The notes beneath the pieces are model-generated. The model was not told the DNA's origin. It did not search any database and worked only from the letters and a program-made list of their open reading frames with translations. 64,000 nt of DNA from Sphingomonas sp. AP4-R1 (lineage in GTDB: Bacteria > Pseudomonadota > Alphaproteobacteria > Sphingomonadales > Sphingomonadaceae). The DNA is taken from positions 2,060,001-2,124,000 of the forward strand of contig NZ_CP053346.1 in assembly GCF_013113735.1 (NCBI RefSeq). The letters are read 5' to 3'. Numbering within the stretch: position 1 is the stretch's first letter; every line of letters starts with the position of its first letter. A program made the translations under genes and the position numbers. Of the stretch, positions 5,509 to 21,706 are shown in pieces.

Positions 5509-6723
5509 GTGTCGCTCGCGCCCTTCGATCTCAATCTGCGCCATCTGCGCGCGCTGGCGGCGATCGTCGCGCAGGGCAGCATGAGCGCGGCGGCGCAGGC
5601 GGTGAGCCTGTCGCAACCGGCGCTGACGCAGGGGCTCGCCAAGATCGAGCGGCAATTGGGCACGCCCCTGTTCGATCGCCGGGCCGATGGCGTGCGGCCG
5701 ACCGAGGCGGGGCTGCTGATGGCGGAGCGGGCGAGCGCGGCACTCGATCATCTGGCGGAGGCGACGCGGAGCGGCCTGCGCGGGGGCGGGCGGGGTTTCG
5801 CGCGGCCGGACCTGCTGATGACGGCGACGCAGCTTCACGCCTTTCTCAGCCTGGTGGAGGCGGGCAGCTTCGCGGGCGCGGCGGTGCGCACCGGCATCAC
5901 CCAGCCCGCTTTGCACCGGGCGGTGCGCGATCTGGAGCAATTGGGCGGCGTGCCTCTGGCCGAGCGGTCGGGGCGGGGACTGGTGGTGACGGCGGCGGGG
6001 CGCAAGCTGGCGCGCGGCGTGCGCCTCGCGGCCACCGAGATCGCGGCGGCGATCGGCGAGATTTCGCCCGATCCGGGGGTCGGCAGCCGGATCACGATCG
6101 GCGCGATGCCGCTCTCGCGCGCCCTGCTGCTGCCGCGCGTGATCGCGGCCTTGGTGCGCGTGGAGCCGCGCGCGGCGATCGACATACGCGAAGGATCGTG
6201 GCGCGAACTGGTCGATCCGCTGCGCGACGGCGCGATCGATCTGATGGTGGGCGCGCTCCGCGATCCGCCGCCGGCCGGGTTGGATCAGGAGGCCCTGTTC
6301 GAGGATCGGCTGGTCGTGGTCGGGCGCGCGGGGCATCCACTGGGGGAAATGCGGCAGCCCACTCTGGCCGATTATGCGCGCTATGGCTGGATCATCGGCC
6401 ATGCCGAAACGCCGCTGCGCCAGCATTGGCATGATCTGTTCGCGGGCCATCCCGCGCCACCCGCGCCGATCGAGTGCGGATCGGTGATGGTGATCCGGGG
6501 CGTACTGCGCGAGAGCGATCTGCTCACCTTGCTGTCGCCCGAGCAGGTGGCGATGGAGGTGGAGAGCGGCGTGCTGGCCCAGATCGGCCCGCCTCTGCCG
6601 CGCGGACAGCGCGCGATCGGCATCACGACGCGCACGGGGTGGCGGCCCACCCTCGTCCAGCAGCGCTTTCTCGCTCTGCTGCGGGAGGCTGGCGACGTGA
6701 CCAGACTTCAGGAAAGCGAATAG
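5509..6723 (+). CDS. ligR: LysR-type regulator with two HTH domains (ligR-like)
   Basis: 404 residues, about 100 more than a normal LysR protein. Two separate winged HTH units are readable: residues ~8-68 ([18 protein letters not shown]... [17 protein letters not shown]) and ~105-165 ([17 protein letters not shown]... [17 protein letters not shown]). A substrate-binding domain runs from about residue 190 ([18 protein letters not shown]). The GTG at 5509 is the only start that keeps the first HTH; its ribosome site (AGGATC) is weak. It is divergent from ligK and upstream of the ligJ-ligABC run, so it is the probable activator of protocatechuate genes with PDC or a related intermediate as effector. 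The symbol is given by context only. Confidence 0.8.
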
Positions 6724-8704: not shown

Positions 8705-9756
8705 ATGTCGAGTTGGATGACCAACCGCTGGTATGTCGCGGCCTGGGATGCCGAGGTGGATCGCACGCCGCTCGCGCGCACGATCTGCGGCGTGCCGATC
8801 GTGCTGTATCGCACGCTGGACCGCCGCGTGATCGCGATGCGCGATGCTTGCCCGCACCGGCTGCTGCCGCTCTCGATGGGGATCCGCGAAGGCGACAGCC
8901 TGCGCTGCCGTTATCACGGCCTGAAGCTGGGGCCGGACGGCGTGGCGGATGAGATGCCGCTCAAGACTGAAAAGCTCAACAAGGCGATCTGCGTGGAGAC
9001 CTATGCGGTCGCCGAGAAGCATCGCTTCGTATGGCTGTGGGTGGGCGAGAAAACCAACGCCGATCCGGCCTTGATCCCCGATTTCTGGCCCTGCTCCACC
9101 GAAGGCTGGACCTTCGACGGCGGCTATGACCGCGTCGGCTGCGACTATCGCCTGCTGATCGACAATCTGATGGACCTGACGCACGAAACGCACGTCCATT
9201 CGGGCTCGATCGGCCAGCCCGAACTGATGCACGCCCCGATCGAGACGGCCAGCGACGGCGAGGCGGTGACGGTCAGTCGCTGGATGCCGGGCGTCGATGC
9301 GCCACCCTTCTGGCGCGGGGCGCTGAAGAAGGACGGGCCGGTCGATCGCTGGCAGGTGTGTCATTTCGTGGCGCCTTCATCGGTGATCATCGATGTCGGC
9401 GTGGCGCCGGTCGGCGCGGGCGCGACGCTCGCGGATCATGACGTGCAGGGCGTGCGCGGCTTCGTGATCGACAGCATGACGCCGGAGAGCGAGACGAGCT
9501 GCCACTATTTCTGGGGCATGGCCCGCAATTTCGATGTGGCCGACATGGGCTTCACCGCGCGCTTCAAGCGCCAGCAATCGGGCGTGTTCAACGAGGATAT
9601 CGAGATCCTCGAAGCGCAGCAGCGCTCGATCCTCGCCAATCCCGATCTGAAGCTGCGTGCTTATGCGATCGACAGTGGCGGCGTGCGTGCGCGCCGCGTG
9701 ATCGAGAAGGATATCAGGGGCGGCCCCGGCGCGCCCTCCAGGGAGAGCATCGCCGC

Positions 9757-9760
<4 letters not shown>
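8705..9760 (+). CDS. vanA: Rieske oxygenase, vanillate O-demethylase oxygenase type (VanA)
   Basis: 351 residues. The N-terminal Rieske [2Fe-2S] domain has CPHRLLPLSMG and CRYHGLKLGPDG (C-x-H...C-x2-H). The catalytic domain has DNLMDLTHETHVH, which supplies the 2-His-1-carboxylate non-heme iron site, then DRWQVCHF and YFWGMARNF. These match VanA over the full length. It would convert vanillate to protocatechuate plus formaldehyde, feeding LigAB directly downstream (stop overlaps the ligA start). Its reductase partner VanB is not in the window. The related demethylase LigXa is an alternative, though the motifs read as VanA. Confidence 0.85.
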
Positions 9761-11090
<1,330 letters not shown>

Positions 11091-11096
11091 CGTATT

Positions 11097-11224
11097 TCTC
11101 CCCTCCCGCATGCGGGAGGGGGCGGGGGTGGGCAGTCCACCTCCACTGCAAGACTGTCGGCCGGGGCGCTCGCCTCGCCCGGCACAGGCCCACCCGCAGC
11201 CCCTCCCGCACGCGGGAGGGGAGG
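11097..11224. repeat. GC-rich intergenic hairpin repeat, family A, copy 2
   Basis: Ends are CCCTCCCGCA/TGCGGGAGGG on the left and CCCTCCCGCA/CGCGGGAGGG on the right, with complementary GGGGTGGGC and GCCCACCC stretches inside. It fills almost the whole ligB-ligC gap. Its right end (GGGAGGGGAGGAG) leads directly into the ligC start. Confidence 0.8.
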
Positions 11225-11229
11225 AGAAC

Positions 11230-12177
11230 ATGACGATGAAAATTGCCCTCGCCGGTGCCGGCGCTTTTGGTGAAAAGCATCTCGATGCGCTGAAGCTGAT
11301 CGACGATGTCGAGGTGATCTCGGTCGTCGGTCGCGAGATCGAGCCGACCAAAGCGGTCGCCGCCAAATATGGCATCGGCCATGCCTGCACCGATCTGGCC
11401 GAGGCGCTGGCGCAGCCCGGTCTCGACGCCGTGATCCTCGCGACCCCCACGCAGATGCACGCCGCCCAGGCGATCCAGTGCATGGAAGCGGGCAAGCATG
11501 TCGAGGTCGAGATCCCGCTCTGCGACAATCTGGCGGATGGCGAGCGCGTGCTGGAGCTGCAGAAGCGGACCGGCCTCGTCTGCATGGTCGGCCATACGCG
11601 CCGCTTCAATCCCAGCCACCAATATATCCACAACAAGATCGTGGCGGGCGACATCGCCGTCCAGCAGATGGACGTGCAGACCTATTTCTTTCGCCGGAAG
11701 AACATCAACGCCAAGGGCGAGGCGCGCAGCTGGACCGATCATCTGCTGTGGCATCACGCCGCGCACACGGTCGATCTGTTCGCCTATCAGGCGGGCCCGA
11801 TCGTGGAGGCGCATGCGCTGCAGGGTCCGATCCATCCCGAACTCGGCATCGCGATGGACATGTCGATCCAGCTCAAGGCCGAAAGCGGCGCGATCTGCAC
11901 GCTCTCGCTGTCGTTCAACAACGATGGCCCGCTGGGCACCTTCTTCCGTTACATCTGCGACAACGGCACCTGGATCGCGCGCTACGACGATCTGGTGACG
12001 GGCAAGGAAGAGCCGGTCGACCTGACCGGCGTGACCGTCTCCAACAACGGCATCGAATTGCAGGACCGCGAATTCATTGCAGCGATCCGCGAAGGGCGCG
12101 AGCCGAACAGCAGCGTCGCCAAGGTGATGCCTTGCTATCGCGTGCTGGCCGATCTGGAAAAGCAGCTGACGAAATAA
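11230..12177 (+). CDS. ligC: 4-carboxy-2-hydroxymuconate-6-semialdehyde dehydrogenase LigC
   Basis: 315 residues, the same length as the SYK-6 enzyme. Gfo/Idh/MocA-fold NADP-dependent dehydrogenase that oxidises the hemiacetal form of CHMS to PDC. Rossmann motif IALAGAGAFGEKHLDAL at the N-terminus; ATPTQMHAAQA and EIPLCDN in the middle correspond to the cofactor-binding strands; VGHTRRFNPSH and WHHAAHTVDLFAY line the substrate site. Start ATG 11230 has GAGGAGAAC upstream; ATG 11236 (MKIALAG) is possible. The gene is followed by a strong terminator and closes the plus-strand lig unit. Confidence 0.96.
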   Translation: MTMKIALAGAGAFGEKHLDALKLIDDVEVISVVGREIEPTKAVAAKYGIGHACTDLAEALAQPGLDAVILATPTQMHAAQAIQCMEAGKHVEVEIPLCDNLADGERVLELQKRTGLVCMVGHTRRFNPSHQYIHNKIVAGDIAVQQMDVQTYFFRRKNINAKGEARSWTDHLLWHHAAHTVDLFAYQAGPIVEAHALQGPIHPELGIAMDMSIQLKAESGAICTLSLSFNNDGPLGTFFRYICDNGTWIARYDDLVTGKEEPVDLTGVTVSNNGIELQDREFIAAIREGREPNSSVAKVMPCYRVLADLEKQLTK

Positions 12178-12209
12178 GGGGTTCGGCCCGCCAGCGGGCG
12201 TGAGAAAAG

Positions 12210-12242
12210 GCCCATCGCCTCAGCCGGGGCGATGGGCTTTTT
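12210..12242 (+). terminator. rho-independent terminator after ligC
   Basis: A perfect 10-bp stem (GCCCATCGCC at 12210-12219, GGCGATGGGC at 12228-12237) with an 8-base loop, followed immediately by five T residues. It ends the plus-strand lig transcript 33 bases after the ligC stop and separates it from pobA. Confidence 0.9.
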
Positions 12243-12270
12243 CATGCGGGCTCCATTGCAGGGCAGTCGG

Positions 12271-12295
12271 ATTATGTTATGAAGAATAACATAAT
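12271..12295. promoter_or_regulatory. pobA operator: 10-bp perfect inverted repeat
   Basis: ATTATGTTAT at 12271-12280 and ATAACATAAT at 12286-12295 form a perfect inverted repeat with a 5-base spacer (GAAGA), ending 10 bases before the pobA ATG. A possible -35 TTGCAG (12256-12261) is 16 bases upstream of TATGAA (12278-12283), which places the palindrome over the -10 element, as expected for repression. The core GTTAT-N5-ATAAC recurs in front of ligV at 19756-19770. Confidence 0.75.
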
Positions 12296-12305
12296 AGAGG
12301 AGAGA

Positions 12306-13478
12306 ATGGTGACCCGTCAGGTTGCGATCATCGGGGCCGGTCCGTCCGGCCTGCTGCTCGGTCATTTGCTCAAGGCGGCCGGGATCGACGTCGTCATCAT
12401 CGAGCGTCAGGCGCAGGCTTATGTCGAGGCGCGCATCCGCGCGGGCGTGCTGGAGACCGTGACCACCGATCTGATGCGCCGGCTCGGCATCGATGCGCGC
12501 ATGAACGCCGATGGCCTGATCGAGGACGGCTTCAACCTCGCCAGCGGCGACCAGCTGATCCGCATCGACATCAAGCGGCTGACCGGCCGCCACGTGACCG
12601 TTTACGGCCAGACCGAGCTGACGCGCGACCTGTTCGCCGCCGCGCAGGAGCGCGGGCTGGAAGCGATCTGCGAGGCCAGCGATCTGGCGATCCACGATGC
12701 CGAGGGTGCGCCCTTCGTGACCTTCGTGCGGGGCGGCGCGATCCAGCGGATCGACGCGCAGTTCGTGATCGGCTGCGATGGCTTCCACGGTCCCTCGCGC
12801 CGCCTGATCGCGGACGCCGGCGGGGCGAAATCGTTCGAGCGGGAATATCCGTTCGGCTGGCTCGGCATCCTCGCCGATGTGCCGCCCTGCCACCCGGAGC
12901 TGATCTACGCGAACACGGACGACGGCTTCGCGCTCGCCTCGATGCGCTCGCCCACGCGCAGCCGCTATTATGTGCAGGTGCCCCTCACCGAGACATTGGA
13001 GAACTGGCCCGAGGACCGGCTGTGGGATGAGCTGGCGAGGCGCTTCGATCCGATCTGCGATTTCGGCGTGACGCGCGGGCCCGCGCTGGAAATGTCGATC
13101 GCGCCGCTGCGTTCGTTCGTGTTCGAGACGATGCGACACGGGCGGCTGTTTCTGGCGGGTGACGCGGCGCATATCGTGCCGCCGACGGGCGCCAAGGGGC
13201 TGAACCTTGCCGCGTCCGATGTCGCCTATCTCTCCGATGCCTTGGTCGATTATTTCCGCTCGGGCAGCGAGGAAGGGCTGATCGGCTATGAGAGAAAGGC
13301 GCTTTCGCGCATCTGGAAGGCGGAGCGCTTCAGCTGGTATCTCACCAAGCTGATGCACCGGTTCCCCGAGGATGGCCCGTTCGAGCATCGCATGCAGGCG
13401 GCCGAACTGGATTATGTCGCCCAGTCCGAAACGATGCAGACCGTGATCGCGGAGAATTATGTCGGCCTGCCGCTTTAG
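12306..13478 (+). CDS. pobA: 4-hydroxybenzoate 3-monooxygenase PobA
   Basis: 390 residues (PobA is usually about 390-395). Class A flavoprotein monooxygenase that hydroxylates 4-hydroxybenzoate to protocatechuate with NAD(P)H and O2. FAD-binding VAIIGAGPSGLLLGHLL at the N-terminus, the RIRAGVLE segment typical of PobA, VIGCDGFHGPSR (DG motif) and RLFLAGDAAHIVPPTGAKG (second FAD/ribityl motif). ATG 12306 is chosen over an upstream in-frame ATG (12279) because it has GAGGAGAGA directly before it and the upstream one lies inside the operator palindrome. It feeds the LigABC pathway encoded just upstream. Confidence 0.95.
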   Translation: MVTRQVAIIGAGPSGLLLGHLLKAAGIDVVIIERQAQAYVEARIRAGVLETVTTDLMRRLGIDARMNADGLIEDGFNLASGDQLIRIDIKRLTGRHVTVYGQTELTRDLFAAAQERGLEAICEASDLAIHDAEGAPFVTFVRGGAIQRIDAQFVIGCDGFHGPSRRLIADAGGAKSFEREYPFGWLGILADVPPCHPELIYANTDDGFALASMRSPTRSRYYVQVPLTETLENWPEDRLWDELARRFDPICDFGVTRGPALEMSIAPLRSFVFETMRHGRLFLAGDAAHIVPPTGAKGLNLAASDVAYLSDALVDYFRSGSEEGLIGYERKALSRIWKAERFSWYLTKLMHRFPEDGPFEHRMQAAELDYVAQSETMQTVIAENYVGLPL

Positions 13479-13515
13479 GCTGGCCGCCCATCTGAATCCG
13501 TTTGCTTCGAGCGAA

Positions 13516-13576
13516 GGTTCGAGCCTGTCGAGAACCGACGTCGAGAAGGGTTCTCGACAAGCTCGAACCAAACGGG
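13516..13576. repeat. intergenic inverted repeat, family B relative
   Basis: GGTTCGAGCCTGTCGAGAAC and its complement (GTTCTCGACAAGCTCGAACC) form a long hairpin between pobA and the aldo/keto reductase gene. The GAGC.TGTCGA wording matches the family B copies elsewhere in the window. It may also serve as a terminator for pobA. Confidence 0.7.
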
Positions 13577-13616
13577 GTGATTTCGTGTCGCCCTTACCTG
13601 CTCTAAAGGCCACGGC

Positions 13617-14624
13617 ATGACTCTCCCCTCCCGCAACATCGGCCCGTTCGAGGTCTCCGCCGTCAGCCTCGGCTGCATGAATCTCAGCCACGCTTATGGC
13701 GGCTATCCGACCGAGGAGGAGGCGGTGCGCCTGCTCAATCGCGCGCTCGATCTGGGCGTGACGATGCTGGATACCGCCGCGCTCTATGGCGATGGCGAGA
13801 ATGAGAAGCTCGTCGGCCGGGCGGTGATGCACCGCCGCTCCGAATTCACGCTCGCCAGCAAATGCGTGCTGGGCATGTTCGATGGCAAGCGCGGGCTGGA
13901 CGGCCGGCCCGAGGCGATCGCGGCCACGCTGGAGGGCGCGCTCCAGCGGCTCGGCACCGATCATATCGATCTCTATTATCTCCACCGTCTCGACGCGAAC
14001 GTGCCGATCGAGGAGTCGGTCGGCGCGCTGGTTCGCGCGAAGGACGCGGGCAAGATCGGCGCGATCGGCATCAGCGAGATGTCGGCGGCCACCTTGCGCC
14101 GCGCGCATGCGGTGCATCCGATCGCGGCGATCCAGAATGAATATTCGCCCGCCGTCCGCAACGTGGAGATGGGGGTGCTGGCGGCGTGCCGCGAACTGGG
14201 CACGGCGATGGTCGCCTTCTCGCCCGTCGTGCGCGGGCTGCTGGCCGGCGCGGTCCGATCGGCCGATTACGGGCCGGGCGATATACGGCGCGCGATGCCG
14301 CGCTTCGTGGAGCCGCAGCTGTCCGAAAATCTGAAGCTGGTCGATGCGTTCGATCGGATCGCGGCCGAGGCGGGGCTGACTCCGGCGCAACTCGCGATCG
14401 GCTGGGTGATCGCGCAGGACCCGACTGTGATCGCGCTGCCGGGCACGAAGAATATCGCGCATCTGGAAGAGGATGTGGCGACGCTGACGAAGCCGATCCC
14501 GCAGGATGCGATCGAGGTGGTGACGGCTCTGTTCCCGTACAATGCGATGAAGGGGCCGCGTTATGCGGCGCTGATGCAGTCGCAGGTGGATACGGAAACG
14601 TTGCCGGACGAAGAGCTGGCCTGA
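13617..14624 (+). CDS. aldo/keto reductase
   Basis: 335 residues, NADPH-dependent AKR of the (beta/alpha)8 type. The catalytic tetrad is visible: Asp in MLDTAALYG with the Tyr of LYG, Lys in TLASKCV and His in YYLHRLD. The C-terminal cofactor segment ALPGTKNIAHLEEDV is also typical. Start ATG 13617. It stands between pobA and the ferulate block and converges with ferA, so it has no clear operon partner. Reduction of aromatic aldehydes such as vanillin is a plausible role by location, but this family is broad (the closest well-known relatives act on pyridoxal or simple aldehydes), so the substrate is open. Confidence 0.85.
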   Translation: MTLPSRNIGPFEVSAVSLGCMNLSHAYGGYPTEEEAVRLLNRALDLGVTMLDTAALYGDGENEKLVGRAVMHRRSEFTLASKCVLGMFDGKRGLDGRPEAIAATLEGALQRLGTDHIDLYYLHRLDANVPIEESVGALVRAKDAGKIGAIGISEMSAATLRRAHAVHPIAAIQNEYSPAVRNVEMGVLAACRELGTAMVAFSPVVRGLLAGAVRSADYGPGDIRRAMPRFVEPQLSENLKLVDAFDRIAAEAGLTPAQLAIGWVIAQDPTVIALPGTKNIAHLEEDVATLTKPIPQDAIEVVTALFPYNAMKGPRYAALMQSQVDTETLPDEELA

Positions 14625-14640
14625 GCTTTTCTCAATCCCC

Positions 14641-14746
14641 ACCCGTCATGCTGAACTTGGTTCAGCATCCATGACCCGACGATAGCGACCGGCCGTTGGC
14701 CGAGAGGGCGGGCGATGGACCCTGAAACGAGTTCAGGGTGACGGGT
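14641..14746. repeat. intergenic hairpin repeat, family C, copy 1
   Basis: Left half has GTCATGCTGAAC-TTG-GTTCAGCAT, right half has CCTGAAACGAGTTCAGGGTGAC. The outer ACCCGTCA and TGACGGGT are complementary, so the element can fold as two hairpins in one large stem. It lies between the convergent aldo/keto reductase and ferA genes. A second copy is at 55721-55812. Confidence 0.75.
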
Positions 14747-14767
14747 AGTGGGAGTGAGGCGGGGGCT

Positions 14768-16882
14768 TCACTCCGCCAAAATCAGCGCATCCAGCGCAAC
14801 CGCGCCCTGGCCCTTGGGATAGACCACCACCGGGTTGAGATCGATCTCGCGGATGCCGGGCGTGCCCTCCAGCAGGCGGCCGAGATTGGCGATCAGATCG
14901 GCCACGGCGTCCACATCCAGCGCTGGGGAACCGCGCCAGCCGTCGAGCAGCGCGCCGCTCTTCAGCGCGCGCAGCTCCGCCACGATCTCGTCGTGCGAGA
15001 GACCGGGTGGCAGCAGGCGCACGTCCTGCAGGATCTCCGCCTGCACGCCGCCGAAGCCGACGAGGATCACAGGCCCCCAATCGGGATCGTTGCGCGCACC
15101 CACGATCAGTTCCAGCCCACGCGCGCCCATCGCCTCGATCAGCCCGCCGTCGAGCAGGATGGCCGCATCATAGGCCTTCACATTGGCGAACAGGCGTTCC
15201 CACGCCGCCTCCAGCGCATCATCGTCGGCGATGTTGAGGATCACGCCGCCCGCGTCGCTCTTGTGGCTCAATGCCTGCGCCTGCGCCTTGAGCACGACGG
15301 GATAGCCGAGCCCGGCCGCCACGCGCCTGGCCTCCGCCACGTCGGCCGCGAAACCACCGCGCGGGAAGGGGATGCCGATCGGGGCGAGCAGGTCCTTCGC
15401 GCGATATTCGGGGATCACGCCGCCGTGGGGCAGCGTGGCTGCGATCGGCGCGGCGGTCGCGGCATCCGAAGCCGCCTTCGCCGACGACAATTTCGCGATC
15501 GCGCGGAAGGCACGGTCGGGCGAGGGAAAGTAAGCGACATCCATCTCGCGCAGCGCCGCCAGATAAGCGGGCGGCACGGGTGCGCCATCGTCCAGCCCGG
15601 CGAAGATGATCGGCTTGTCCGCATCCAGCGCGCGCAGCGTTTCGATGATCGGCTCGAACTTCAGGCGGGCCGTCATCTCGTCGGTCTGGATAATGGCCAG
15701 CACCACGCTGCCATAAGCGGGATCGGCCAGCAGCGGAATCAAGGTCCGGCGATAGAGATCGGGATCGACCAGAGACTGCGCGGTCAGGTCCATCGGATTG
15801 CTGATGCCGATGAAGTCGGGCACCGCCGCGCGCAGCGCCGCCGCCGTTTCGTCAGCAGGGGCGGGGAGGGGCAGAGCGAGGTTCTCGCACAGATCCAGCG
15901 TCAGCGCCTTGAACGCGCCGGATTCGGCCAGCACGGCGGTACCGGACGCCATCCGCCCCGCGCGGATCGCGAGATCCAGCACGTCGCCCAGTTCCTCGAT
16001 ACTGTCGACCAGCACGACGCCCGCGCGCGTCACCAAAGTCTTCATCACCTGCCAGTCGCCGGCCATCGCGCCGGTATGCGTGGCGGCGGATTCGCGCGCG
16101 GCGCTGGATTTTCCGGGATGGAGCAGCACGATCTGTTTGCCCGCCGCGCCCGCCCGCTCGGCCAGCGCGAGGAAGCGTTTCGGGCTGCGGAACTGCTCGA
16201 CGATCATGCCGATCGCCCGCGTCTGCGGCTCGTCCAGCAGATAAGCGAGATAATCCTCGACCCCGCTCGCCGCCTCGTTGCCGGTGGAAACGGAGATGGA
16301 GATGCCCAGATCCTTGGCCATCAGCACCGTGCCCAGCACCACCGCCATCGCGCCCGATTGGGAGACGATGCCGACGCCGGGGCCGGCGAGCCTTTGCGCG
16401 GGCGTCTCGACGAAGGTGAGCGGCACACCGTCGAGATAATTGACGAGGCCCAGGCAGTTCGGCCCCAGCACGACCATGCCATGCGCGGCGGCGATGCGGG
16501 CCACTTCGGCCTGCGCCGCCATGCCTTCCTCGCCACCCTCGGCGAAACCGGCCGAGAAGATCACGGCCGCGCCCACGCCGCGCGCCGCCAGCTCCCGGAT
16601 CGCGCCGAGGACGGCCGCGCCGGGGATGGCCAGCACGGCCGCGTCCACGCCTTCGGGCAGTTCCGCGATCGCGCCCAGCGCCTGCCGGCTGCCGATCACC
16701 GGCCGCTTGGGATTGATCAGGTGGATGTCCCCGGCGAAGCCGTGCCGCTCCAGATTGCGCAGCACGCTGTTGCCGAGCGCGCCCGGCTTTTCGGACGCCC
16801 CGACGATGACGACGGAGCGGGCCTTCAGCAGGCGATCGAGCGAGCGCGCCTGCGGCGGCGCGAGAGTGTCGGCGGCGGCCAT
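14768..16882 (-). CDS. ferA: feruloyl-CoA synthetase FerA (NDP-forming acyl-CoA synthetase family)
   Basis: 704 residues, fused alpha-beta acyl-CoA synthetase (NDP forming). Order: CoA-binding domain (~15-130; SVVIVGASEKPGALGNSVLRN), succinyl-CoA-ligase-like domain (PNCLGLVNY, GIVSQSGAMA), a THTGAMAGD segment near residue 270 with the phospho-accepting histidine, and a C-terminal ATP-grasp domain (~480-704; YPVVLKAQAQALSHKSDAGGV, ending EIDLNPVVVYPKG). SYK-6 FerA belongs to this class, unlike the AMP-forming Fcs of pseudomonads. Ten bases separate it from ferB, which uses its product, so the assignment rests on family plus context. It would activate ferulate and other hydroxycinnamates. Confidence 0.85.
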   Translation of the reverse strand: MAAADTLAPPQARSLDRLLKARSVVIVGASEKPGALGNSVLRNLERHGFAGDIHLINPKRPVIGSRQALGAIAELPEGVDAAVLAIPGAAVLGAIRELAARGVGAAVIFSAGFAEGGEEGMAAQAEVARIAAAHGMVVLGPNCLGLVNYLDGVPLTFVETPAQRLAGPGVGIVSQSGAMAVVLGTVLMAKDLGISISVSTGNEAASGVEDYLAYLLDEPQTRAIGMIVEQFRSPKRFLALAERAGAAGKQIVLLHPGKSSAARESAATHTGAMAGDWQVMKTLVTRAGVVLVDSIEELGDVLDLAIRAGRMASGTAVLAESGAFKALTLDLCENLALPLPAPADETAAALRAAVPDFIGISNPMDLTAQSLVDPDLYRRTLIPLLADPAYGSVVLAIIQTDEMTARLKFEPIIETLRALDADKPIIFAGLDDGAPVPPAYLAALREMDVAYFPSPDRAFRAIAKLSSAKAASDAATAAPIAATLPHGGVIPEYRAKDLLAPIGIPFPRGGFAADVAEARRVAAGLGYPVVLKAQAQALSHKSDAGGVILNIADDDALEAAWERLFANVKAYDAAILLDGGLIEAMGARGLELIVGARNDPDWGPVILVGFGGVQAEILQDVRLLPPGLSHDEIVAELRALKSGALLDGWRGSPALDVDAVADLIANLGRLLEGTPGIREIDLNPVVVYPKGQGAVALDALILAE

Positions 16883-16892
16883 GATCGCGTCC

Positions 16893-17729
16893 TCAGGCCT
16901 TCTGCTTGGAGAGATCATAGGCGCCAAGACCCGGCTTGTAGGTCTTGTCGTCGATGAACTGCTTGATGCCTTCCTTGCGGCCCTCATTGTCGTAGCTGTT
17001 GGCCGCTTCCTGCGCGCGGATCAGATAATCCTCGGCATTGTCGTAGCTCATCTCGCGGACGCGCCGGATGGCGTCCTTGGTGGCCTTCAGCGCGACCGGA
17101 TTCTTGGTGAGCAGCTTCTGCGCGACCGCGCTCACGCGATCCTTCAGCTCCGCCAGCGGCACGGCTTCGTTGACGAAGCCCCATTCCACCGCCGTCTTGC
17201 CGTCGATATTCTCGCCCATCAGCGAATGATACATGGCGCGGCGGAACGAGGTGAGTTCGGTCGCCACCTTGGCGGCGCCGCCGCCGGGCAGGATGCCCCA
17301 GTTGATTTCGGACAGGCCGAACTGGGCATCCTCCGCCGCGAAGGCGAGGTCGCAGGCGAAGAGCGGGCCATAGCCGCCGCCGAAGCACCAGCCATTGACC
17401 ATCGCGATCGTCGGCTTCTGATACCAGCGCAGGCGCCGCCACCAGCCATAGCTTTCGCGCTGGGCGCCGCGCGTCCCGCCCAGCCCCTTGGCCTCGGTCT
17501 CGCGGAAATATTCCTTCAGATCCATCCCCGCCGTCCAGGCCGAGCCTTCGCCGGTGAGGACGAGGACGCCGACGTCGTCGCGAAACTCCAGCTCGTCCAG
17601 CACCTGCATCATGCGGCGGTTGAGGCGCGGGCTCATCGCGTTGCGCTTGTCGGGACGGTTGAGCTTCACCCACGCCACGCGATCGATGACCTCGAAGGCG
17701 ACGGTATCGAGTTCGGTCTGGTCGGTCAT
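16893..17729 (-). CDS. ferB: feruloyl-CoA hydratase/lyase FerB (HCHL)
   Basis: 278 residues, crotonase superfamily. It hydrates feruloyl-CoA and then cleaves it by retro-aldol to vanillin and acetyl-CoA. Marks of the HCHL group rather than of generic enoyl-CoA hydratase: WTAGMDLKEYFRETE, the tryptophan-rich ESYGWWRRLRWYQKPTIA, VNGWCFGGGYGPLFACD (oxyanion loop) and FGLSEINWGILPGGG with the catalytic glutamate. Start ATG 17729 follows a GGAGTC-like site. It is cotranscribed with DUF3237 (22 bases upstream) and ferA (10 bases downstream). Confidence 0.92.
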   Translation of the reverse strand: MTDQTELDTVAFEVIDRVAWVKLNRPDKRNAMSPRLNRRMMQVLDELEFRDDVGVLVLTGEGSAWTAGMDLKEYFRETEAKGLGGTRGAQRESYGWWRRLRWYQKPTIAMVNGWCFGGGYGPLFACDLAFAAEDAQFGLSEINWGILPGGGAAKVATELTSFRRAMYHSLMGENIDGKTAVEWGFVNEAVPLAELKDRVSAVAQKLLTKNPVALKATKDAIRRVREMSYDNAEDYLIRAQEAANSYDNEGRKEGIKQFIDDKTYKPGLGAYDLSKQKA

Positions 17730-17751
17730 GCGGGACTCCTTCGGAAGTAGG

Positions 17752-18270
17752 TCAGTCGACGGAGAAGACGTCGATCTGGACGGTGTCGGGATTGCGGATG
17801 CCGCGCGCGACGAACACGGTGCGGCGCAGCCAGTCATGGGGTCCGTCCGCCACGCTCATGCGTGGGGTGGTGCGGAAATAATAAGCGTCGGGGCCGACCG
17901 GCTCGCCGCGCGCCAGCTTCGCGGACACGTCGGGCGAGGCGACGCGGACGCCGGGATTGAGGATGTCGATCACGGTGCCGTCGCGGGCCTTCAGCGTGTA
18001 GCGCGTGTCGATGATCGTGAGGCCGTCGGCGCCGATCGTCTGCCAGTCGCCGCCGCCGGGCAGAACGATGCCTTCCAGCTTCGGTCCGCTGACAGTGCCG
18101 CCCGTGATCGGCACGAAACGCTTGCGGCGTCCGTCGACGATTCCCTGCTCGATCGGGTCCGCCAGCGTCACTGCGATCGTGAACGCATAATGGAGGCCGG
18201 GCGCGGGGGGCGCAGGCAAAGCCGTGGCGCCCGCGGCGACAGCCGCGGTGATTATGGCCAGTGTCAGCAT
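17752..18270 (-). CDS. exported DUF3237 protein in ferulate operon
   Basis: 172 residues. A signal-peptide-like N-terminus (MLTLAIITAAVAAGATALPAP) precedes a DUF3237 beta-barrel-like domain: FTIAVTLADPI, RRKRFVPITGGTVSGPKLEG, GGDWQTIGADGLTIIDTRYTL and YYFRTTPRMSV. The function of DUF3237 is not established. It lies between ligV and ferB with gaps of only about 21 bases, so it belongs to the ferulate operon. The predicted export suggests a periplasmic role with the substrate, for example binding or isomerisation of a hydroxycinnamate or handling of its ester. That is inference from context only. Confidence 0.8.
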   Translation of the reverse strand: MLTLAIITAAVAAGATALPAPPAPGLHYAFTIAVTLADPIEQGIVDGRRKRFVPITGGTVSGPKLEGIVLPGGGDWQTIGADGLTIIDTRYTLKARDGTVIDILNPGVRVASPDVSAKLARGEPVGPDAYYFRTTPRMSVADGPHDWLRRTVFVARGIRNPDTVQIDVFSVD

Positions 18271-18291
18271 GGGCTGATCCTTGGGTTGTGG

Positions 18292-19734
18292 TCAGATCGG
18301 GTAGTGGCCCGGCTGCGTCTCGATCGTGATCCAGCGCAGTTCGGTGAAGCTCTCGATCCCGGCCTTGCCGCCGAAGCGGCCATAGCCGGAGGCCTTCACG
18401 CCGCCGAAGGGCATCTGCGCCTCGTCATGCACGGTCGGGCCATTGACGTGGCAGATGCCGGACTTGATCTGGCGGGCCACACGGAGGCCGCGCGCCGTAT
18501 CCCTCGTGAAGACGGCGGCGGAGAGGCCATAGTCTGTGTCGTTGGCGAGCGTGATCGCCTCGGCCTCGTCCTTCGCGCGGATGATGCCGACGACCGGGCC
18601 GAAGCTCTCGTCGCGAAACAGCTTCATCGCGGGCGTGACCCGGTCCACCACATGCGCGGGCATCAGCACGCCCTTCGCCTCACCCCCCACCAGCAGGGAA
18701 GCGCCAGCGGCGAGCGCATCGTCGATCAGGCCCTTCACATGATCGACCGTCTTCTGATCGACCACGGCGCCCAGCGGCGTCTTGCCCTCGCGCGGATCGC
18801 CGACGGGCATGGAGGCGACCTTCGCCTTGAACTTCTCAGCAAAGGCATCGGCCACGGCATCGACGACGATGATCCGCTCGGTCGACATGCAGATCTGGCC
18901 ACTGTTCATGAAGGCCCCGAAGGCGGCGGCCTTCACCGCCTCATCGAGATCGGCATCGTCCAGCACGATCAGGGGAGCCTTGCCGCCCAGTTCCAGCAGC
19001 ACCGGCTTCAGATGCTCGGCCGCGCGCTTGGCGATGATCTTGCCCACATGGGTCGAGCCGGTGAAGTTGATGCGGCGCACTTCGGGGTGATCGATCAGCG
19101 CGCCGACAATCTCGGCCGCATCGACCGGGGCGTTGGTGACGATGTTGACCGTGCCTTCGGGGAAGCCCGCCTCCGCGAATGCCTCGATGATCAGGCTGTG
19201 CGTGCGCGGGCATTGCTCGGAGGCCTTGAGCACTACCGTATTGCCACAGGCGAGCGGCACGGCGATCGCGCGCACGCCGAGGATGATCGGCGCGTTCCAC
19301 GGCGCGATGCCGAGAATCACGCCGACGGGCTCACGCAGCGCCATCGCGATGCAGCCGGGCTTGTCGGAGGGGATCACTTCGCCGCTGATCTGGGTGGTGA
19401 GGGCGGCGGCCTCGCGCACCATGCCGACGGCCAGCATCAGGTTGAAGCGGACCCAGCCCTCGGTCGCGCCGATCTCGCCCATCATGGCATCGACGAAGGC
19501 ATCGGCCTTGGCGGCGAGCGCGTCGGCGGCCTTGGTCAGGATCGCGCGGCGGGCATTGGGGCCGAGTGCGGACCAGGTGGGGAAGGCGGCGGCTGCGGCA
19601 TCGGCGGCGGCATGGGCGTCCGCCACGGTGGCGGAGGTGACGGTGGTCGCGACTTCGCCGGTAACGGGATTCAATCGCTGGAACAGGGCTGGGCCATCCG
19701 CTTTCCGGGGCGCTGCCTCGCTGATCGTCGCCAC
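18292..19734 (-). CDS. ligV: vanillin dehydrogenase-type aldehyde dehydrogenase (LigV)
   Basis: 480 residues, NAD(P)-dependent ALDH that should oxidise vanillin to vanillate. VGVILGIAPWNAPIILGVRA (cofactor/transition-state asparagine), NFTGSTHVGK, LLELGGKAPLIVLDDADLD (general-base glutamate), FMNSGQICMSTERI (catalytic cysteine) and ESFGPVVGIIRA are visible. The GTG at 19734 is chosen: it gives the length of known LigV and has AAGGAG six bases upstream; the only upstream ATG would read through the operator. It is the first gene of the minus-strand ligV-DUF3237-ferB-ferA unit. Confidence 0.9.
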   Translation of the reverse strand: MATISEAAPRKADGPALFQRLNPVTGEVATTVTSATVADAHAAADAAAAAFPTWSALGPNARRAILTKAADALAAKADAFVDAMMGEIGATEGWVRFNLMLAVGMVREAAALTTQISGEVIPSDKPGCIAMALREPVGVILGIAPWNAPIILGVRAIAVPLACGNTVVLKASEQCPRTHSLIIEAFAEAGFPEGTVNIVTNAPVDAAEIVGALIDHPEVRRINFTGSTHVGKIIAKRAAEHLKPVLLELGGKAPLIVLDDADLDEAVKAAAFGAFMNSGQICMSTERIIVVDAVADAFAEKFKAKVASMPVGDPREGKTPLGAVVDQKTVDHVKGLIDDALAAGASLLVGGEAKGVLMPAHVVDRVTPAMKLFRDESFGPVVGIIRAKDEAEAITLANDTDYGLSAAVFTRDTARGLRVARQIKSGICHVNGPTVHDEAQMPFGGVKASGYGRFGGKAGIESFTELRWITIETQPGHYPI

Positions 19735-19752
19735 GCTGCTCTCCTTCGTCTT

Positions 19753-19774
19753 ATTGTTATGAGGGATAACCAAT
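19753..19774. promoter_or_regulatory. ligV operator and promoter
   Basis: Core GTTAT-N5-ATAAC at 19756-19770 (spacer GAGGG), extended imperfectly to ATTGTTAT/ATAACCAAT. On the minus strand TTGCAC (19786-19791) is 17 bases from TATCCC (19763-19768), so the palindrome covers the -10 element, as it does at pobA. It lies between the MarR gene and ligV, 19 bases before the ligV start. Confidence 0.75.
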
Positions 19775-19801
19775 GTCCGGGAGTCGTGCAAGCCCTTTCG
19801 A

Positions 19802-20275
19802 TCAGTCGGTGGGCGCCTGTTCGCGCGCCTCGATCCGGCGGATCAGATCGATCAGGGTGCGGCGTTCCGCGCCGGAGAAATCGGCCAGCAGCTCATTCTC
19901 ATGCGCGATCAGGCGCGCGGTGGCCTCCTCCAGCGTGGCCTGTCCCTTCGTCGTCAGCGCGAGTGCGATCGCGCGGCGATCATCCTCGGCCGGGGTGCGT
20001 TCGACGAGACCGCCTTCCGCCAGTTCGTTGATCAGCACGACCATGTTGGCACGCTTGATGCCCAGCGCTTCCCCGGCCGCGCCCTGGCGGATGCCGGGAT
20101 TGGCCGCGATCACGGAGAGGATCGCGAACGGCACCTGCCGCAGCCCCTCGCCGCCGACGGTGCGCGTGAAATCGCTGCCGAAGACGGCGGAGGCGCGGCG
20201 CAGATGATAGCCGACCAGGCTGTCCAGCACGCCCAGCGCCTCATTCTGTCCAGCATCCGATACCGCGCCGCTCAT
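19802..20275 (-). CDS. ferC: MarR-family regulator (FerC-like)
   Basis: 157 residues, the usual size for MarR. The winged HTH is readable: GEALGIKRANMVVLINELAEGGLVERTPAEDDRRAIAL, where the DxRR wing motif is EDDRRAIA. In SYK-6 the ferulate genes are repressed by a MarR protein (FerC) that releases DNA on binding feruloyl-CoA, and this gene has the same position, directly in front of the ligV/ferBA run. It starts 28 bases after the transporter stop and probably shares that transcript. The palindrome downstream of it controls ligV, and the same palindrome at pobA suggests a wider regulon. Confidence 0.85.
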   Translation of the reverse strand: MSGAVSDAGQNEALGVLDSLVGYHLRRASAVFGSDFTRTVGGEGLRQVPFAILSVIAANPGIRQGAAGEALGIKRANMVVLINELAEGGLVERTPAEDDRRAIALALTTKGQATLEEATARLIAHENELLADFSGAERRTLIDLIRRIEAREQAPTD

Positions 20276-20303: not shown

Positions 20304-21620
20304 TCAGCCCGCCCGCGCCTGATCTAGCGTTTCGCCACGCGCGAGCAACAGGATGGCGCAGGCCGCCACCAGCGAGCCCAGCGCCATCAGCACCGCCACG
20401 GAGGGCAGCGCATAGCCCGCGGCGAACAACAGGCCCGCCAGCGCGGGCGCCAGCGCCGATCCGCCCCGGCCCACGCCGATGATGAACCCGGTCGCGCTCG
20501 CCCGCACGCCGACCGGGAAGGCGCGCGCCACCAGCGCGTAGATCGCGACCACGCCGGCATTGGTGCAGAAACCCGCGACGGCGGCGATGGCGGACAGTTC
20601 GCCGATGCCGTCCGTCATCCGGCCGAACAGCGTGACCATCACCACGGAGGCCAGCATCGCCGCGATCGCCAGCCGGCTGAGGCGCACGCGCGCCGTCATC
20701 AGCCCCAGCAGGATCGATCCGCTGGCCCCGCCCACATTGGCCCAGACCAGCACGCCCGCCGCCGCCGAGGGCGCGAAGCCGAGGTCGACCACGATCTTCG
20801 GGATCCATTTCAGCGTGAAGTAGAAGGTCATGATGTGCGCGAGATAAGCGATCGTGAGCAGGATGGTCGGCCGGGCGAGCGTGCCCTGGAACAGCTCGGT
20901 CAGCGGAACGCTTGCGCGCGCCGGGGGAGGCGGGGGAAGCGCGTCGACCGTTCCATGCCCCATTCGCCGCAGCGTGGCGTTCACGCGGTGCAGCGCGCGT
21001 GCGTCCGGCCGCTGGATCAGGAAGGCGATCGATTCGGGCGCGCGCCACAGGACGAGCGGGATGAAGCAGAGCGTGGCGACCGCGCCGAACTGGAACACCA
21101 CCGGCCAGTCATGCCGCGCGAGCAGGGCGGCGGAGATCGAGCCGCCGACGATCGCGCCGACCGGATAGCCGCCCGCCATCAGCACGACGGCGAGGTTGCG
21201 ATGCTTCGCGTTCGAGGCCTCGGCGACGGCCGCGTTGGTCGCGGCGAGCATCCCGCCAATGCCGAAGCCCGTCACCACACGCCACACGGACAGGATGACG
21301 ATCCCGCCCGAGGAGGAAGCACCGAACATCCCGATCGCCATCACGACGAGGCAGCCGAGGATCGTGCGGCGGCGGCCGATCATGTCGGCCAGGCTTCCCA
21401 GCAGGAAGGAGCCCGCCGCCATGCCGATCAATTCCATCGAGAGGACGAAGCCGAGCGCGGCGCGATCGACGCCCCAGGCTTTCGAGATGCCGGGCGAGGC
21501 GAAGCTGATCGAGAGCACGTCGAACCCGTCGAGCGCGTTCAGCCCGATCATGATCGCGACCACGATCCACTGGAAACGCGACATCGGCTCCCGATCGATG
21601 ATCGCACGCGGATCCTGCAT
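20304..21620 (-). CDS. MFS transporter, aromatic acid:H+ symporter (AAHS) type
   Basis: 438 residues, about 12 predicted membrane helices in two halves with a central loop (~200-240). LNALDGFDVLSISFASPGI in helix 1 is the DGFD motif typical of the AAHS family (PcaK, VanK, BenK). LADMIGRRRTILG is the MFS loop 2-3 motif. It should import an aromatic acid such as ferulate, vanillate or 4-hydroxybenzoate across the inner membrane. Start ATG 21620 rather than the upstream ATG at 21665, since it directly precedes the cytoplasmic N-terminus. Immediately upstream of ferC on the same strand. Confidence 0.88.
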   Translation of the reverse strand: MQDPRAIIDREPMSRFQWIVVAIMIGLNALDGFDVLSISFASPGISKAWGVDRAALGFVLSMELIGMAAGSFLLGSLADMIGRRRTILGCLVVMAIGMFGASSSGGIVILSVWRVVTGFGIGGMLAATNAAVAEASNAKHRNLAVVLMAGGYPVGAIVGGSISAALLARHDWPVVFQFGAVATLCFIPLVLWRAPESIAFLIQRPDARALHRVNATLRRMGHGTVDALPPPPPARASVPLTELFQGTLARPTILLTIAYLAHIMTFYFTLKWIPKIVVDLGFAPSAAAGVLVWANVGGASGSILLGLMTARVRLSRLAIAAMLASVVMVTLFGRMTDGIGELSAIAAVAGFCTNAGVVAIYALVARAFPVGVRASATGFIIGVGRGGSALAPALAGLLFAAGYALPSVAVLMALGSLVAACAILLLARGETLDQARAG

Positions 21621-21706
21621 CCTGCACCCCTCTCTTCCGTCTTTTATCGGGAGTGGGTCTAGCAATCGCTATGTTTCAGAACAATCGATTTGAGGGGGGC
21701 TTTCGT

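Follow-up and report, generated by a model that had tools for sequence, protein, structure and literature searches.

A MarR-type operator predicted to join pobA to the ferulate operon in Sphingomonas sp. AP4-R1

FerC of Sphingobium sp. SYK-6 is described in excerpts of PMC5048394 as a MarR repressor of the ferulate genes, and both FerC and CouR are reported to respond to hydroxycinnamoyl-CoA (excerpts of PMC4737184 and PMC5048394). CouR of Rhodopseudomonas palustris is responsive to p-coumaroyl-CoA and represses couA and couB (excerpts of PMC10458429, in which no link to pobA appears), while CouR of Rhodococcus jostii RHA1 is a MarR repressor of several hydroxycinnamate promoters, which it recognizes through an inverted repeat with an N5 spacer (excerpts of PMC4737184); the main text of the latter paper contains no occurrence of "pobA". 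A link between pobA and FerC is likewise absent from excerpts of PMC7356249, and no report of pobA under a hydroxycinnamate MarR operator was found in the literature searched, with its limited library and terms.

Here we compare these systems with a 64,000-nucleotide stretch of Sphingomonas sp. AP4-R1 DNA (NZ_CP053346.1, positions 2,060,001 to 2,124,000), referred to below as the window, for which the best-supported reading of the sequence is that pobA and the ferulate operon share one MarR regulator.

The MarR protein and its neighbourhood

The regulator (19802–20275, minus strand) carries a MarR winged-helix domain, for which PF12802 at 49.3 bits and PF01047 at 34.7 bits each exceed the cut-off, a GY..RRA motif, and a recognition helix reading IKRANM. 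Its best sequence match among solved structures is 6c28 (E 3.3e-17), which we take to be CouR of R. palustris, and in which the corresponding helix reads ILRPNF. Its best NCBIfam match is Saro_0803 of Novosphingobium aromaticivorans (NF053777), of whose family it is not a member, scoring 92.1 bits against a curated cut-off of 200. The target promoter of Saro_0803 carries an inverted repeat that covers the -10, and the protein controls the stilbene cleavage gene nov1 and answers to resveratrol (excerpts of PMC10046596). The SYK-6 MarR protein beside ferB, taken as FerC by its position, has the same IKRANM helix but is 30% identical to the window protein and lies in a different set of the tree, where, with 23 chosen rows, a midpoint root, and a long SYK-6 branch, the window MarR belongs to a 13-row set (96/93) and the SYK-6 protein to an 8-row set (95/90). 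Grouping apart in this way, the window MarR is not a strict orthologue of the SYK-6 protein.

As expected of a regulator of the FerC/CouR type, the gene adjoins those for a hydroxycinnamoyl-CoA synthetase and a hydratase-lyase, and inverted repeats overlie the predicted promoters of pobA and ligV. The adjoining operon, all on the minus strand, comprises a ligV-like aldehyde dehydrogenase gene (18292–19734), a gene for a small protein matching PRK00872 hypothetical families below their cut-offs (17752–18270), ferB, encoding p-hydroxycinnamoyl-CoA hydratase/lyase (16893–17729; 462.4 against a cut-off of 276), and a ferA-like gene for an ADP-forming acyl-CoA synthetase (14768–16882; a family match under the equivalog cut-offs). 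No NCBIfam aldehyde dehydrogenase equivalog exceeded its cut-off among the 25 matches listed for the ligV-like protein, and the name, with the function of vanillin/4-hydroxybenzaldehyde dehydrogenase, rests on gene order and operon context. A predicted aromatic acid:H+ symporter of the MFS type (20304–21620, minus strand; TIGR00895 at 303 bits, under the cut-off of 418.55) is encoded 28 bp before marR, with which it is probably co-transcribed. A weaker operator-like site upstream of this pair (21663–21687, minus strand) is the third best in the window at a matrix score of 16.5, for which the simulation described below, with 6 hits in 48 Mb, gives about 2e-5 expected per 150 bp; sites before mfs elsewhere score 14.2 in genome G002 and 11.9 in G006. 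This third site suggests that marR may be autoregulated.

Eleven proteins of the same genome match the MarR alignment profile, two of them above 53 bits, and the RANM motif occurs in the helix of the window MarR only. A paralogue, MarR2 (G000:C1:2484630-2485091), is 60% identical to the window MarR, has a stop-free open frame, belongs to the same tree set, and lies next to a disrupted copy of ligV that has a degenerate operator-like sequence, all of which would be consistent with its controlling the pobA operator instead of, or besides, the window MarR. We nevertheless regard this as improbable, since the recognition helix of MarR2 (IQSANM) has Ser where the other 22 of the 23 aligned proteins have Arg.

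Matching sites over the pobA and ligV promoters

The 4-hydroxybenzoate 3-monooxygenase gene pobA (12306–13478, plus strand; TIGR02360 at 562.6 against a cut-off of 538.7) follows ligA-ligB-ligC, the genes of protocatechuate 4,5-cleavage (9757–12177, plus strand). The candidate pobA operator (12271–12295, plus strand) reads ATTATGTTAT-GAAGA-ATAACATAAT, and its arms, on either side of a 5-bp spacer, are perfect over 10 bp, as had been claimed. The predicted promoter (12256–12283, plus strand), read from the sequence, has its -35, TTGCAG, at 12256–12261 and, after a spacer of 16, its -10, TATGAA, at 12278–12283 inside the operator. On the minus strand, the ligV-ferB-ferA operator (19753–19774; a pattern match with a matrix score of 25.0) reads ATTGTTAT-GAGGG-ATAACCAAT, with perfect core arms and one inserted base as the sole difference in the outer arms, and overlaps the -10 of a predicted promoter (19763–19791) composed of TTGCAC (19791–19786), a spacer of 17, and TATCCC (19768–19763). 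Re-reading of both sites therefore upheld the original prediction of a common GTTAT-N5-ATAAC core and of a TTGCA(G/C) -35 standing 16–17 bases from a TAT-starting -10 within the palindrome. A consensus promoter scan with a stricter -10 rule listed neither promoter.

Among the described systems, SYK-6 has a comparable palindrome, since its marR/ferB intergenic region holds ATGCTAT-AAGCC-ATAGCAT, that is GCTAT-N5-ATAGC, equal in geometry to the window operator. The strong operators of the window precede ligV and pobA, whereas no site of this kind lies within 250 bp of pobA in SYK-6, where the pobA upstream region scores -8.4 on the matrix. The CouR box of RHA1, cATTGA-N5-TCAATg, differs from that of the window and lies over the -35 (excerpts of PMC4737184).

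A scoring matrix was built from 19 ligV/ferB sites other than that of the window, 17 of which had been found using the window's own core, which leaves the flanks and the position as the only features independent of that core. The pobA site scores 32.9 on this matrix, within the leave-one-out range of the training sites (20.7–37.6), and with the core positions removed it still scores 10.6 (training sites 2.3–15.4); the flanks of the window ligV site are weak by themselves (2.7). A null of random spots was set aside, many loci having been chosen because of the motif, and simulation and leave-one-out scoring were used instead. PobR regulators belonging to the IclR or AraC families have been described in other organisms, and the genome encodes seven IclR-type proteins matching the PcaR/PcaU/PobR profile (TIGR02431), to one of which the pobA palindrome might belong, its likeness to the ligV site being coincidental. 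That the palindrome serves a separate PobR-type regulator is, however, very improbable, given that all seven fall below the cut-off of the profile and that the fit of the pobA site to the ligV/ferB matrix, flanks included, is as good as that of the training sites. A separate 4-hydroxybenzoate sensor may still be present among the seven.

The gap between ligC and pobA also holds a terminator-like 18-bp hairpin with a T run (12204–12243, plus strand), identified by folding; the fold of 12178–12250 has an energy of -44.6 kcal/mol (z -4.5), and a terminator listing gives a terminator-like stem at 12210–12237 on the minus strand only. We compared 32 distinct ligC-pobA junctions, the window's included. 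The gap in the 31 others is -1 to 64 bp in 30 and 179 bp in one, and a strong operator is present in none of them, a uniqueness that concerns the operator; the hairpin, folded for the window junction alone, may have counterparts in the others. Five pobA upstream regions score at least 19.3, and because none of these is among the 31 other junctions, the idea that the pobA site was merely inherited along with the gene order was rejected. Inverted-repeat DNA was seen by eye in two junctions, L140 and L152.

Occurrence in the genome and the family

The exact core occurs twice in the 5.27 Mb genome, namely in the -10 regions of pobA and of ligV-ferB-ferA, as the genome scan proposed with the original prediction now establishes, and its reversed control does not occur. 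Within the window, GTTATGARGRATAAC has 2 matches when up to two mismatches are allowed, whereas shuffled sequence gave 0.01 on average and none of 100 shuffles had 2. A larger regulon was considered and dropped, the 16 further core sites found genome-wide at one mismatch being at chance level against 28 control sites. Some better-scoring extra sites lie in apparent coding sequence (L003) or near a LacI-like gene, so named by eye (L010/L011); the latter are palindromes resembling the operator and indicate that sites of this kind may also serve other repressors.

A simulation of 48 Mb of first-order Markov sequence with the composition of the window produced no exact core and no matrix score of 25 or above, although it is optimistic and understates chance, real genomes of the family being richer in the core. 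The exact core is found in 158 of 397 family genomes, where the reversed control is frequent too (13 in G235, for example), and because both are so common the weight must fall on position, promoter geometry, and flanks. When the core is joined to a -35 (TTG-N18-core), 26 matches remain in the 397 genomes against 3 reversed controls, and 22 of the 26 stand just before ferB (9), ligV (9), pobA (3), or marR (1).

The operator precedes pobA in four other genomes with other layouts. In G002, operator and pobA follow a marR remnant and precede short ligV- and ferA-like remnants; in G037 and G178, pobA with its operator is divergent from a MarR gene of the window MarR's tree set; and in G033, an operator scoring 19.3 lies 28 bp before pobA. 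In G194 (L156), ligV and pobA are separated by 10 bp and follow a one-mismatch site, and in G094 (L165) ferB and pobA are 23 bp apart. Among 7 genomes of the genus, a MarR with an E value of at most 1e-15 is found in G000, G002, and G006 only; G004 has a site before ligV, yet the sole MarR seen there (41%) adjoins pobA. No close sister species was found in which conservation of the exact pobA site could show. We tentatively propose, at somewhat less than even odds, that sphingomonads have repeatedly and independently placed pobA under a hydroxycinnamoyl-CoA-responsive MarR as a feed-forward control without PobR, in which pobA would respond to a thioester formed several steps before its own substrate and not to that substrate. 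The ways to this arrangement would have been a new operator past a terminator, the collapsing of a ferulate operon onto pobA, a dedicated pobA-MarR pair, or fusion with ligV or ferB.

Proposed regulation and its meaning

p-Coumarate is converted to 4-hydroxybenzaldehyde, 4-hydroxybenzoate, and then protocatechuate. The window MarR is likely to repress the promoters of both pobA and ligV-ferB-ferA and is probably released by hydroxycinnamoyl-CoA, a view for which we infer the steps of binding, repression, and ligand. A MarR dimer would bind GTTAT-N5-ATAAC over the -10 of the two promoters and block RNA polymerase there; on entry of p-coumarate or ferulate, the ferA product would form the hydroxycinnamoyl-CoA thioester that releases MarR, and this release would thus induce the upper pathway and 4-hydroxybenzoate hydroxylase together, with the weaker mfs-marR site providing mild autoregulation.

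It is rather unlikely that, in place of a CoA thioester, the window MarR responds to an intermediate that is a hydroxybenzoate or an aldehyde (4-hydroxybenzoate or vanillate, for instance). PcaV and MobR, which would be precedents, are both MarR proteins. They bind protocatechuate and 3-hydroxybenzoate (excerpts of PMC4737184), and a MarR of the window MarR's tree set adjoins pobA in G037 and G178, with none of nine other tested genes listed in the 16 kb covered; however, the closest solved relative of the window MarR is CouR, FerC and CouR respond to the thioester, and the enzymes encoded next to marR make and use it.

The original prediction of one MarR regulon containing pobA and the ferulate operon is favoured by the same operator and geometry, the SYK-6-like helix, and the four other pobA operators. 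Its further suggestion that two entry routes are linked stands as regards the common operator, but not as regards separate routes, which for p-coumarate are consecutive.

If the proposed regulation is correct, pobA answers a thioester made upstream, its own substrate having no such role, and control of the FerC/CouR type extends to 4-hydroxybenzoate hydroxylase. For strains used in lignin conversion, the prediction is a sharp one, namely that p-coumarate or ferulate should induce pobA, and that 4-hydroxybenzoate on its own should do so poorly. The definition of the operator can help in annotating the hydroxycinnamate regulons of Sphingomonadaceae, and the locus would provide an example of a catabolic gene that has quit one operon, that of the lig genes, and entered another regulon.

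Operators, gene order and pathway

The two palindromes that the original prediction placed before pobA (12271-12295, plus strand) and before ligV (19753-19774, minus strand) are both present in the sequence as described, and so is their geometry: at both promoters the palindrome contains a hexamer beginning with TAT, separated from TTGCA(G/C) by 16 or 17 bases. Neither promoter is listed by a consensus promoter scan that demands a better -10. The genome scan proposed alongside them returned two exact copies of GTTAT-N5-ATAAC in 5.27 Mb, one at pobA and one at ligV, and no exact copy of the reversed motif in the whole genome; within the window, GTTATGARGRATAAC with up to two mismatches occurs at these two sites only (shuffle mean 0.01).

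The minus-strand order is mfs, marR (19802-20275), operator, ligV, small protein, ferB and ferA, and the plus-strand order is ligA, ligB, ligC, hairpin, operator and pobA; pobA and ferB pass curated cut-offs, and the names ligV and ferA were assigned from family and context. The products of ferA, ferB and ligV convert p-coumarate to 4-hydroxybenzoate and ferulate to vanillate, and that of pobA converts 4-hydroxybenzoate to protocatechuate. The operator is indeed shared by what had been called two entry routes, but these are consecutive in the p-coumarate branch, of which pobA is the next step because ferA, ferB and ligV yield its substrate. A LysR-type regulator (5509-6723) carries two HTH_1 stretches followed by one substrate-binding domain.

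Operator scores and pobA layouts in the family

Scores were obtained with a matrix built from 19 ligV or ferB sites (17 from a TTG-N18 scan, plus ferB of Sphingobium sp. SYK-6 and ligV of G006), with all window sites and all pobA sites left out of training. The window ligV site scores 25.0, within the leave-one-out training range of 20.7-37.6. Among 113 distinct pobA upstreams, a non-random set with some loci fetched for holding the motif, five score at least 19.3 (window 32.9, G002 30.3, G037 27.2, G178 27.0, G033 19.3), and the sixth-best scores 10.0. The SYK-6 pobA upstream scores -8.4; pobA is present in 95 of the 397 family genomes, and only part of these upstreams was read. With the core columns omitted, the pobA and ligV sites of the window retain 10.6 and 2.7 (training, 2.3-15.4).

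The 397 family genomes contain 26 matches to TTG-N18-GTTAT-N5-ATAAC, spread over 25 genomes; the reversed control has three. The downstream gene is ferB in nine, ligV in nine (the window's own included) and pobA in three; one match lies beside marR on a short contig, and four (L124, L130, L137, L138) lie beside none of eleven genes tested. The window pobA site is absent from this set because its spacer is 16 bases. The core alone is common, occurring somewhere in 158 of 397 genomes, and its reversed control is frequent too (places counted among the matches listed).

The layouts around pobA vary. G002 has a marR remnant (37 residues, 57%), the operator, short ligV-like (weak match, E 9e-5) and ferA-like remnants and then pobA, as if the ferulate operon had collapsed onto pobA. 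A MarR gene is divergent from pobA in G037 and G178, and the third genome of their genus (G119) carries its site at ferB instead; in G033 the site lies 28 bp 5' of pobA, which is convergent with ferA. G194 (L156) has a one-mismatch site, then ligV and pobA separated by 10 bp, and 23 bp separate ferB from pobA in G094 (L165).

The 112 distinct pobA loci include 32 in which ligC stands directly 5' of pobA. The gap measures -1 to 64 bp in 30 of these, 131 bp in the window and 179 bp in L152 (from tblastn ends); only the window's junction belongs to the five operator-bearing upstreams. At that junction an 18-bp hairpin and its T run are followed by the operator-bearing predicted promoter, and pobA therefore seems to have become detached from the lig operon; by its own rule, the terminator scan of the window lists this stem for the minus strand only.

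The third-best score in the window (16.5, 21663-21687) lies directly 5' of mfs-marR, where simulated sequence gives an expectation for such scores of about 2e-5 per 150 bp, or 0.66 per genome (from six matches). The best sites 5' of mfs in G002 (14.2) and G006 (11.9) fall at related sequence, which together suggests weak autoregulation of mfs-marR. The fourth-ranking match (13.1) falls within ligB; all others score at most 6.7. A Rieske-type oxygenase gene (8705-9760), vanillate demethylase-like by eye, lies 5' of ligA; the matrix finds no high-scoring operator before this ligA-side gene in the window, and the ferulate-specific lower step therefore seems to lie outside the MarR regulon, with pobA inside. 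Elsewhere in the genome, similar palindromes 1.1 kb apart (L010 and L011; G000:C1:3436902 and 3438019) flank, by eye, a LacI-type regulator gene, one of them 5' of a hydrolase-like gene; these are perhaps LacI operators resembling the MarR core.

The candidate regulator

Among solved structures, the window MarR protein best matches CouR (6c28, E 3.3e-17). Its recognition helix carries RANM, a feature of 22 among the 31 different MarR proteins read from the loci when it is itself included; the others are L065 (RANL), L103 (RANF), the pobA-linked L115 and L116 (RPNM), MarR2 (SANM) and four distant proteins, and GY..RR is invariant in 23 proteins chosen for alignment. The SYK-6 MarR protein beside ferB, taken as FerC by position, has the same helix, IKRANM, and ATGCTAT-AAGCC-ATAGCAT lies between its gene and ferB; PMC5048394 describes two FerC operators, IR1 and IR2, upstream of ferB, and this palindrome may be either. 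In a midpoint-rooted tree, the window protein falls in a 13-row set (96/93) with ligV-, mfs- and pobA-linked proteins, including those of G037 and G178, whereas the SYK-6 protein falls in a separate, mostly ferB-linked 8-row set (95/90) with the pobA-linked protein of G004; both of these, SYK-6 and G004, sit on long branches.

The genome holds a second protein of the 13-row set, MarR2 (G000:C1:2484630-2485091), 60% identical to the window MarR, which might act as the regulator instead or as well; the next own-genome match has 53 bits. Because MarR2 carries Ser in place of the helix Arg common to the other 22 of the 23 aligned rows and adjoins a broken ligV copy with decayed operator-like sequence, and because none of the other nine own-genome matches carries RANM, the sequences favour the window MarR.

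The MarR2 locus (L021:9619-17707; G000:C1 about 2484600-2492700) contains the decayed ligV copy and an mfs fragment. At L021:13393, 3.3 kb from these genes, a one-mismatch operator-like site (18.5) separates a tannase/feruloyl esterase gene from a TonB receptor gene; a carboxylesterase gene follows, and a role of the locus in hydroxycinnamate-ester uptake is possible. SYK-6 echoes this arrangement at L190:11777, where a MarR protein of the window MarR's set (51% in alignment) adjoins a one-mismatch site, beyond which lies a TonB receptor gene.

Proposed ligand and regulon

FerC and both CouR proteins are released by hydroxycinnamoyl-CoA, as described in the portions available of PMC4737184, PMC5048394 and PMC10458429, and by analogy we infer a ligand of this class for the window MarR; the rival reading is that it senses hydroxybenzoate instead. 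According to PMC4737184, the SYK-6 and R. palustris proteins have neither of the two Arg residues that CouR of RHA1 uses. The original prediction of one MarR regulon over pobA and the ferulate operon is, with the amendments described, supported by sequence evidence, and such a regulon would comprise pobA and ligV-ferB-ferA. Control of pobA by a FerC/CouR-like MarR protein would be a variant of an already known control type.
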